A stretch of DNA of 64,000 nt from Actinomycetota bacterium (GTDB lineage: Bacteria; Actinomycetota; Actinomycetes; S36-B12), in NCBI GenBank assembly GCA_016870515.1, contig VGBL01000004.1:62001-126000 (forward strand), given 5' to 3'. How positions within the stretch are numbered: position 1 is the stretch's first letter; every line of letters begins with the position of its first letter. The notes under the pieces were generated by a model, which was not told the origin of the DNA, made no database searches, and worked only from the letters and a program-made list of their open reading frames with translations. Positions 13,865 to 16,213 of this stretch are shown here, in pieces. The position numbers were made by a program, and so were the translations under genes.

Positions 13865-13880
13865 TCACCCACCCCATCCG

Positions 13881-13954
13881 CCGTTTCTCCCACAACGTGG
13901 GACAAGCGGTGCAACTTGGTGCCCTGTCAGGGCGAAAACGACTGTTTGTCCCAG
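13881..13954 (+). repeat. Left 74-nt inverted repeat
   Basis: Starts CCGTTTCTCCCAC-AAC-GTGGGACAAGCGG, a 13-position imperfect stem with a 3-nt loop, then a second perfect palindrome GCCCTGTCAGGGC at 13921-13933, then the half-site CTGTTTGTCCCAG. It begins 17 nt after the citrate synthase stop, so the first hairpin may also serve as that gene's terminator. The rest, up to 14059, contains no gene I can support. Confidence 0.75.
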
Positions 13955-14059
13955 TTCTCGCGCGTGGACGGCCAGGTCTTGGTCGCACATGGCAAGGAAC
14001 CGATTGCCGGCGGTTGCGTCAGTGCAGGCCGGAACGGCGAGCCAGAGCCGGGGCCACCG

Positions 14060-15061
14060 CTAGGCGATGCGTCTTGATGCGATGTCCATGGCGCGCACGA
14101 TGCGGGCGATGACGACGTGAGGCCTGCGAAGCATCTCGTCCCACGTCCACCTAACGACTGTCCACCCCTGGGCCCGGAGTCGATCCTCGCGAGCCTTCTC
14201 GGCGATGAGGTCAGATCGGTCCTGGTACTTGAGCAGTCCGTCCGCCTCGCCGATGACCTTGTGATCTGGCCACGCCATGTCGGCGTATCCAATGAGGCCG
14301 TCGGCATCGAACACAGGCAACTGGAGAATGGGCTCTGGCAGACCTGCCTCGATGAGGCGGAATCGCGAAAGGGACTCGAGCGGTGTCTGGGCGCCCGGGC
14401 GGGTGAGGTCCAAGGCCTTGCGTACCGTCCCGATTCCCTTGATCCTGTGCCAGTCTTCGACGAGGTCAGACAGTCGGTCCTGTTGCGTGGAGTCGCGCCA
14501 CAGAAGTGAATCGAGAGTGGCCACCGCCCACATGAGCTCCGACTGGGCTGCGGTCGTCAAGGCTGCGGTTGCCAAGTCGACCGTGGGTATCCCGTCAACC
14601 ACTGTTAGGTGCGCCTCGTTGAGCGCATGCGAATGAATCGAGACCGACCCAAGCTCCGTTGATCCCGAGATGCGTCGACGAAATGCGCGCTGGTCGTGGA
14701 GTAAGGGGCGAACGATCGACACGTGCGAGCGGAGCGCTTGATCAACGGTGAGTTCATGAAGGGCTGCTGCGCTCGCGGCAAAGGCATAGGCAGGGCCGGG
14801 CAGGGACGCCATGGCTGCGGAGAGAAAGATGGACGTCCTGGCTCGAGGGTCTCCGGCGGACCTGAAAACGTCCGTGTCGATGTAGACACCGTGGTGAAGG
14901 CGCGTCCACCAGCCCCGCCTCACAAACGTCCGGATGACCGCGTGATCGATGCCCAAGGCATCAAGGTCCGCACGTTGGAAGATCCCGTGACGACGGTGGG
15001 CATGTGCCTGCACGGCGTCGCGCAGAGCCAGGTGCTCGAGTTGGCGTCGGCCGCTAGTCAC
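14060..15061 (-). CDS. AbiEi-type winged-helix protein with DUF559/Vsr-like nuclease domain
   Basis: A 333-residue two-domain protein. The N-terminal part (about residues 20-60, HGIFQRADLDALGI...RRGWWTRLHHGVY) looks like the winged-helix domain of AbiEi-type antitoxins. The C-terminal about 100 residues resemble the DUF559/Vsr branch of the PD-(D/E)XK nucleases: D261 in GYADMAWPD, E272 and D274 in VIGEADG, then REDRLRAQGWTVVRWTWDE. GTG at 15061 is preferred because CACAGT lies exactly 6 nt upstream; GTG at 15013 is possible. No toxin partner (AbiEii) is adjacent, so a classic type IV toxin-antitoxin pair is unlikely. It is the only gene in the inverted-repeat cassette. Whether it cuts DNA or binds the repeats is unknown. 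Confidence 0.75.
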   Translation of the reverse strand: MTSGRRQLEHLALRDAVQAHAHRRHGIFQRADLDALGIDHAVIRTFVRRGWWTRLHHGVYIDTDVFRSAGDPRARTSIFLSAAMASLPGPAYAFAASAAALHELTVDQALRSHVSIVRPLLHDQRAFRRRISGSTELGSVSIHSHALNEAHLTVVDGIPTVDLATAALTTAAQSELMWAVATLDSLLWRDSTQQDRLSDLVEDWHRIKGIGTVRKALDLTRPGAQTPLESLSRFRLIEAGLPEPILQLPVFDADGLIGYADMAWPDHKVIGEADGLLKYQDRSDLIAEKAREDRLRAQGWTVVRWTWDEMLRRPHVVIARIVRAMDIASRRIA

Positions 15062-15128
15062 GCGGGCACTGTGGAGTCGAGCCAGCTGATTGGCAATCGG
15101 CTGTCCACAGGCGCGGCGTTCATCCCCA

Positions 15129-15144
15129 GGCCTGCGCGCAGGCC
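15129..15144. promoter_or_regulatory. Perfect 16-bp palindrome upstream of the cassette gene
   Basis: GGCCTGCGCGCAGGCC lies about 68 nt upstream of the GTG at 15061 and inside the cassette. It could be an operator for the winged-helix domain of the encoded protein; this is inference from position and symmetry only. Confidence 0.35.
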
Positions 15145-15182
15145 AGGGACCCCGGCACCCCTGCACACGCCGCGCCTGAAGC

Positions 15183-15256
15183 CTGGGACAAACGGTGACT
15201 TAGGGCCCCCATCAGGGGTCAAACGCACCGTTTATCCCACTTTGTGGGACAAACGG
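15183..15256 (-). repeat. Right 74-nt inverted repeat
   Basis: Reverse complement of the left repeat's plan: CCGTTTGTCCCAC-AAA-GTGGGATAAACGG forms a 13-bp stem including one G-T wobble, followed by a CCCC/GGGG mini-hairpin at about 15207-15218 and the half-site CCGTTTGTCCCAG. It ends 21 nt from the dapD stop (15278), so it could also terminate dapD transcription. Confidence 0.75.
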
Positions 15257-15277
15257 AGAGGGGTTGAGGGGGTGCGG

Positions 15278-16213
15278 CTAGTCGTTGGCGTGCAGGGCGG
15301 TGTTGAGGCCGCCCCAGCCGCCCTCGCGCAACACGACCTCGATGGCGCCGCTTTGCGAGTTGCGCCGGAAGAGGAGTCCGCTGCCACCGGAGAGTTCGCG
15401 CGCCTTGACGACATTGCCGTCGGGCAGCGTCACCCTGGCTCCTGCGGTCACGTAGGTGCCGGCCTCGACGATGCAGCGATCGCCGAGGCTGATGCCGATG
15501 CCGGCGTTGGCCCCGATGAGGCAGCCTTCGCCGACGCTGATGACGTCGGTGCCGCCCCCTGAGAGCGTGCCCATGATGGATGCGCCGCCCCCGATATCGG
15601 AGCCGTCACCCACGACGACTCCCGCGGATATCCGCCCTTCCACCATCGACGTGCCGAGGGTGCCCGCATTGAAGTTGACGAAGCCCTCGTGCATCACGAC
15701 GGTTCCCTCCGCCAGGTGGGCGCCGAGTCGCACGCGATCGGCGTCGGCGATCCGCACACCGGACGGGATCACGTAGTCGACCATGCGGGGGAACCTGTCG
15801 ATGCCGAGCACGATGAGGCTCTCGCCGTGGGTGCGTGCTCGCAATCGGGCATCGGTCATGGCATCGGGCGCGACCGGTCCGCGCGACGTCCACGCGACCA
15901 GCGGGAGCACGCCGAAGATCCCGTCGAGGTTGATGGTGTGCGGGAGAGCGAGGCGGTGCGAGAGCAGGTGGAGTCGCAGGTAGGCATCGGCCGCATCACC
16001 CGGTGGCGACTGCAGGTCGTCGATGCACGTCAGGATCGGGCGTACGTCGACGCCGCGGATGTCGTCTCGGCGGCTGGCCGCATCGATGCCCGCGACGGCG
16101 AGGGGCACGGAGCCCAGGGCAGGATGGGGATACCAGGCGTCGAGAAGGGCGCCGCCCGCGTAGGTCGCGAGCCCGTGAGCACAGGCGGGGCCGGTGACGG
16201 GTTCGAGATCCAC
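15278..16213 (-). CDS. dapD: Tetrahydrodipicolinate N-succinyltransferase
   Basis: A 311-residue acyltransferase of diaminopimelate synthesis, succinylating tetrahydrodipicolinate before DapC. The C-terminal half has left-handed beta-helix hexapeptide repeats ([33 protein letters not shown]), and [19 protein letters not shown] is characteristic of the actinobacterial long DapD type. GTG at 16213 ([10 protein letters not shown]) was chosen because TAACGT lies 7 nt upstream; the open frame continues much further but without conserved sequence. Length agrees with actinobacterial DapD. Confidence 0.92.

Follow-up and report, generated by a model that had tools for sequence, protein, structure and literature searches.

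REPINs have been described as REP doublets arranged as inverted repeats and linked to RAYTs (PMC3116915). One account describes RAYTs as vertically inherited genes present in single copy, which had not been observed on plasmids (PMC8049555). The CGTC REPs are presented as a palindromic REP family without a dedicated transposase (PMC3733652). AbiEi is reported to bind inverted repeats in its own promoter and thereby to autoregulate (PMC3985639), which makes an AbiEi-like domain a plausible reader of repeats.

The window, a 64,000-nucleotide stretch of the genome of an Actinomycetota bacterium, holds a unit in which a single gene for a predicted AbiEi-Vsr fusion nuclease is enclosed by two inverted hairpin repeats (Table 1). 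Judged by sequence comparison, the association of the gene with hairpin repeats is firm. We consider it probable that the sequence-only reading was right in proposing a REP/RAYT-like unit with a different enzyme, and that this unit is the full-length member, coding for that enzyme, of a repeat system of the REPIN/RAYT kind.

Table 1 Features of the unit and its surroundings (positions in the window).
Feature	Position	Strand	Evidence or remark
Gap between the citrate synthase stop and the dapD stop, occupied by the unit	13865–15277		Protein matches, neighbours
C-rich outer edge, left	13865–13880	+	Sequence; mirrored on the right by a G-rich edge, 15257–15277
Left repeat: 13-nt arm, 3-nt loop, 13-nt arm, 32-nt middle, third arm	13881–13954	+	Alignment; eight further genome sites
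Left repeat, 29-nt hairpin	13881–13909	+	
Left repeat, third arm	13942–13954	+	
Gene, AbiEi antitoxin fold and Vsr-like (DUF559) nuclease	14060–15166	−	Pfam, PADLOC, AlphaFold2, fold matches
Right repeat, inverted copy of the left	15183–15256	−	Hairpin 15228–15256, third arm 15183–15195

The unit is ordered as arm-loop-arm-middle-arm, gene, and mirror image. The two 74-nt ends pair without gaps when one is reversed, in agreement with the sequence-only reading, and 11 copies of the repeat from the same genome fill exactly 74 alignment columns, 26 of which are invariant (the truncated copy on contig C10 was left out). The 29-nt outer hairpin is near invariant, and its covariation is therefore uninformative. 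The same reading had proposed a central mini-hairpin with changed bases and kept pairing. RNAalifold predicted no central helix from the alignment, and the central 32 nt had a mean z of −0.55 against single-base shuffles over the 11 copies, one of them below −2, with a combined z of −1.8 for copies that overlap one another. A conserved central mini-hairpin in the window repeat is thus weakly supported at most. Kept pairing was found in copies of another family, those of Labedella endophytica, which align as single hairpins. The 18 copies (17 distinct) carry compensatory changes; of 500 shuffles, which ignore the relatedness of the copies, none attained their covariation score and 22 attained their count of pairs in which both bases had changed. 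By eye, GTAG is absent from the repeat ends in both the window and the Labedella families. Across families, the inward strand carries a C4 run at 48 of 84 outer edges, against 2 of 84 for G4; further out from the repeat edges, the numbers are 18 for C4 and 11 for G4. The region 15224–15365 (minus strand), which overlaps the right repeat and the dapD end, matches the sucA RNA motif with 26.7 bits; since the Rfam cut-off is 40, this identity was rejected as a probable chance match.

The gene encodes 368 amino acids counted from the first GTG; the true start is uncertain, and homology begins at about residue 45. Pfam models AbiEi_4 (PF13338, residues 52–95, E = 6e-11) and DUF559 (PF04480, residues 296–360, E = 6e-5) match above the Pfam cut-offs, and PADLOC models label the N-terminal half AbiEi. 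An AlphaFold2 model built from 57 sequences has a mean pLDDT of 89.7. Residues 44–256 of the model form an AbiEi fold, winged helix included, which resembles AbiEi of Streptococcus agalactiae (6y8q; Z 11.7, 185 residues aligned, rmsd 5.6; Foldseek E = 2e-5) and Rv2827c (1zel; Z 8.7, 210 residues aligned, rmsd 4.8). Residues 260–365 form a Vsr/EDxHD-type nuclease fold. Its structural relatives are NGO0050 (3hrl; Z 12.6, matched by sequence as well with E = 1.7e-4), the homing endonuclease I-Bth0305I (3r3p; Z 12.3, 96 residues aligned, rmsd 2.5) and Vsr (1cw0; Z 10.2). TnsA was discarded as a fold relative, its Z of 6.7 being too weak for use. In the 57-sequence alignment E264, E307, D309 and K313 are invariant and D296 is conserved at over 90%, so the nuclease half looks active. 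K313 lies opposite a gap in the NGO0050 alignment. The domain matches and folds uphold the earlier description of a single gene joining an AbiEi winged helix to a DUF559/Vsr domain, and the reported absence of a toxin partner holds for the genes adjoining the unit. These are citrate synthase (PF00285) and dapD, the gene for tetrahydrodipicolinate N-succinyltransferase (PF14789), both of which run towards the unit.

The PADLOC label would suit a solitary antitoxin-nuclease fusion serving defence or addiction, with the dispersed hairpins labelling self DNA or activating the nuclease against phage DNA. We regard this as very improbable, as no AbiEii partner adjoins the gene and relatives were found in 0 of 50,697 phage records, 2 of 72,556 plasmid records and none of 55 pattern-matching viral stretches, counts with which a chromosomal defence function is compatible. 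On the same counts, plasmid, phage or viral carriage of the unit was rejected. The protein is chromosomal and, by analogy with RAYTs, perhaps partly domesticated.

Homologues were collected from 40 relatives, from 166 genomes of the order and, as the best 80 of 359, from 84,980 species genomes; with its further loci, this survey leans to closer relatives. Rows with a profile score below 60, a profile start beyond 60 or less than 200 nt of flank on either side were dropped. Removal of identical protein cores reduced 102 genes to 75, and removal at 70% identity or more reduced these to 64, all from Actinomycetota, with both flanks present, less than 70% identical and including the window gene. 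In this set, which derives from the best 80 of 359 and the other loci, 42 of 64 genes have an inverted flank pair with a score higher than 19, the top value among 153 neighbouring ORFs that served as controls and were scored for inverted repeats only. Homologous genes elsewhere are thus often enclosed by inverted repeats of their own; the median of the best inverted match is 24 for the 64 homologues and 11 for the control ORFs. With flank pairs taken across loci as the null, which the presence of related loci inflates, only 21 of 64 genes score beyond its 99th percentile. The repeat sequences differ from gene to gene and most are hairpins; among the 42 genes, 34 upstream and 28 downstream arms fold with z below −2, and several arms form almost perfect stems, about 29 bp long and unrelated in sequence. 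The pairs at L110 and L134 score above the threshold and are not hairpins (fold z near zero). No inverted pair above the threshold was found in 22 of 64. One of these, L073, has repeats all the same, scoring 9.5 by gene ends and 19.5 by gap ends (as L166), and four others, L092, L117, L099 and L094, have direct repeats above 19.

The window repeat is not confined to the unit. Its matches in the own genome fall at nine sites, the unit and eight others on eight contigs (C1, C3, C6, C15, C19, C43, C49 and, truncated, C10), and the core pattern CGTTTNTCCCA has 23 matches in the genome versus 3 for a reversed control pattern. The site on C1 is a two-hairpin site. On C43 (L045:5512–5646) the repeat forms a tandem array with a 61-nt period, in which arm-loop-arm-middle is repeated. 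In its layout, the window unit resembles such an array with a gene placed in the loop of its central hairpin. Among 85 genomes of the window's family, the search detected the window repeat in two, its own and G084, the latter with a single 33-nt match. None of ten same-genus relatives had a match with E ≤ 1e-4; the same query found 6 of the 9 own-genome sites, so divergent copies in other genomes could be missed.

Homologous genes elsewhere have dispersed repeats of their own. Counting the ends of the units, Labedella endophytica has 27 sites of the cognate repeat and Gordonia effusa has 11; G084 has at least 40, a number based on scoring 40 of the 50 candidates from a first look. In 20 stretches of G084, picked with apparent pairs in mind, there are 12 close inverted doublets with spacers of 33–100 nt, every one of them in the same +/− orientation as the gene-bearing unit. 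Two of them are 90% identical over 176 nt including the spacer and lie in unrelated flanks, which indicates that the doublet was copied as a unit. The spacers were considered as products of gene deletion, an origin rejected because none of the 12 resembles the interior of the unit beyond shuffles. G084 also contains wide repeat pairs, at L245, L246 and L256, around unrelated genes (PfkB, HEAT repeat and MPAB_Lcp_cat by Pfam). Those at L245 (2439–3424, PfkB) and L246 (2532–3550, HEAT repeat) are in unit orientation around a single gene, possibly a chance enclosure or captured cargo.

Further AbiEi-DUF559-like genes lie on contigs C18 (L047:58–130), C22 (L048) and C32 (L051; a weak family match of 54.8 bits) of the window's genome. 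Each is inside its own, different inverted flanking pair; two distant paralogues in the same genome (C8 and C1:99k) have no flanking pair. The search found the C18 repeat in four of the 85 genomes. The own genome has it at the C18 unit and at one solitary site (C13), G073 at 10 sites, G008 once and G001 twice. The C18 branch of the protein tree holds genes from G073, G008, G010 and G072. The repeat was not found in G010 or G072, though both carry related genes with related repeats.

Among the 42 genes, repeat similarity tracks protein similarity (rho 0.23, reached by 0 of 2000 permutations). Of the 18 pairs whose protein similarity is above 0.5, 12 have a repeat score of at least 20; of the 788 pairs below 0.35, none does. 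Such a correlation could equally arise from joint inheritance alone. The change of repeat with protein, and the presence of the same protein family inside repeats in many genera, argue against the gene being a passenger among non-autonomous relics moved by an unrelated transposase. Palindromic REP families of the kind reported for CGTC REPs, without a dedicated transposase (PMC3733652), offer this view a precedent. A search for the Y1/RAYT transposase (PF01797, Y1_Tnp), the only transposase family covered, found none in the four genomes searched (the own, Labedella endophytica, Gordonia effusa and G084), while the control was positive in 5 of 14. We give the passenger explanation hardly any credence.

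The site of the unit was compared in 85 genomes of the family, of which 78 have a dapD match; 30 loci were fetched for reading of the gap. The citrate synthase-dapD gap measures 2–75 nt in 16 of these loci and is filled in six, and eight have no citrate synthase in the locus. The relatives do not share repeats without the gene at this site: among nine same-genus relatives with dapD, the gap is empty in seven (5–54 nt), and in the closest two of those examined the protein matches are 5 nt apart. In the other two (G002 and G007) it holds a unit from a distant branch. Eight filled gaps were read, including that of the window unit and some from homologue loci, seven of them with both neighbours seen. 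An AbiEi-DUF559 gene with its own hairpin pair around it occupies seven of the eight. In the remaining one (G078, L288:2452–3648) there is no hairpin pair and the gene is unrelated, resembling a hydrolase by eye; the convergent gap may therefore accept insertions in general. On a protein tree of 89 rows, built by a quick method, the site label needs five changes, at least three of which are forced by starred branches. The window gene and L059 are sister genes with related repeats, and their common site may reflect either repeated insertion or old inheritance with loss.

Occupation of one gap by different lineages, in seven filled cases with both neighbours and with five changes on the tree, at least three forced, is what a homing-like nuclease could produce. 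Such an enzyme would break both strands at unit-free sites, repair would copy the unit in, and the unit would be a free-standing homing endonuclease gene with structured ends. The match of the nuclease half to the I-Bth0305I catalytic domain (Z 12.3) fits this mechanism. It leaves the many solitary hairpins and gene-less doublets unexplained, however, and the repeated occupation may mean that convergent gaps are favoured; an unrelated gene fills one of the gaps. We consider homing of this kind quite improbable. The window unit lies between genes, outside any intron or intein.

A preference for gaps after stop codons is seen across the units. With orientation called by codon-position G+C, convergent neighbours flank 27 of 36 units, and 27 of 178 gene pairs are convergent (p = 3e-12), where the control pairs were under slightly stricter limits, 6 of 42 units were uncallable and some units share the dapD site. 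The median distance from the repeat edge to the facing stop codon is 14 nt. Counted with the unit ends, the dispersed copies lie between convergent genes in 11 of 18 cases in Labedella, 4 of 10 in Gordonia and 7 of 23 in G084 (5 uncalled). Many solitary copies are near stop codons, where the hairpins could be kept as terminators.

This position near stop codons, both of the units and of many solitary copies, would also be expected if the protein were a repeat-binding regulator of its own gene and the neighbours, with the hairpins as operators and bidirectional terminators and ordinary recombination spreading the repeats. Autoregulation by AbiEi through inverted repeats in the promoter, as reported (PMC3985639), supports this alternative. 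A regulator has no need, however, of a conserved nuclease half (E264, E307, D309 and K313 invariant, D296 over 90%), of matched repeats on both sides of the gene, or of whole doublets copied with their spacer, and the 5-nt gap in the closest relatives implies that no terminator is needed there. We consider this regulatory explanation unlikely.

The reading that we prefer is that of a repeat system that works like REPIN/RAYT but is outside that family. It draws comparative support from the inverted hairpin pair around the gene, the dispersed copies, the lineage-specific repeats, the empty site in relatives, the correlation between repeat and gene similarity, and the preferred gaps after stop codons between convergent genes. 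The 22 of 64 homologues without a pair and the C18 repeat with its one solitary site count against it, as does the weakness of the case for a central mini-hairpin. The core of the sequence-only reading, a REP/RAYT-like unit with a different enzyme, has withstood the comparisons of repeat copies, homologue flanks and the site in relatives. On sequence grounds, the protein likely acts on the hairpins, and it probably moves them. We hypothesize that the AbiEi-like half binds the palindrome, and that the Vsr-like half nicks or cuts the palindrome once this has been extruded as a hairpin, as might happen at a replication fork. Repair or rejoining would then place a copy of a hairpin, of a doublet or, in rare cases, of the entire unit at a new intergenic position. 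More broadly, we lean slightly towards an Actinomycetota-wide class of palindromic repeats that is convergent with REPIN/RAYT. Its enzyme would be an AbiEi-Vsr nuclease directed at hairpins, joining a DNA reader of the antitoxin type to a cutter of the repair or homing type, and each gene lineage would keep its own hairpin population.

Homologues of this family bear labels such as AbiEi antitoxin or DUF559. A function for the AbiEi-DUF559 fusion, or a description of the unit, was not found in the literature searched, which took in few subscription papers and no bioRxiv preprints. The comparisons point to a small genetic element, mobile or tamed, of an undescribed kind. If this is true, the system would be a second, independently evolved answer to the role of RAYTs, in genomes in which no Y1 enzyme was found (four of four). 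It would also supply candidate enzymes for palindromic repeats without a known transposase, a reason for the existence of AbiEi-like proteins without toxins, and many natural enzyme-hairpin pairs of differing specificities for study.

The unit has inverted ends in common with canonical insertion sequences; comparison with neighbours about 89% identical revealed no target-site duplication, the closest empty-site junction being too diverged to read. The enzyme of IS1272-type elements is presumably unrelated to the window protein. Those elements, described as replacing inverted repeats (PMC5678879), resemble the unit, which looks like an enzyme gene placed in the loop of a hairpin array and around which no target duplication was seen. 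With the AbiE type IV toxin-antitoxin systems (Rv2827c-like) the unit shares the AbiEi fold of residues 44–256, whereas it has no adjacent AbiEii nucleotidyltransferase toxin and does have a C-terminal nuclease and flanking, dispersed hairpins. The EDxHD/Vsr nucleases I-Bth0305I, Vsr and NGO0050 share the fold of residues 260–365; unlike them, the window enzyme is fused to AbiEi and tied to repeats, and neither an intron or intein nor a mismatch-repair setting was seen around it. The REP/REPIN-RAYT systems (REPtrons, TIRtrons) differ in their enzyme, an HUH/Y1 tyrosine transposase in place of AbiEi plus a Vsr-like nuclease, and in their repeats, which here are longer (about 60–80 nt) and without a GTAG end in the two aligned families. 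They are alike in the gene between inverted palindromic repeats, in the dispersed singlets, in the inverted doublets with a spacer (here in G084 only), in the joint divergence of enzyme and repeat, and in a chromosomal location with near absence from plasmids.
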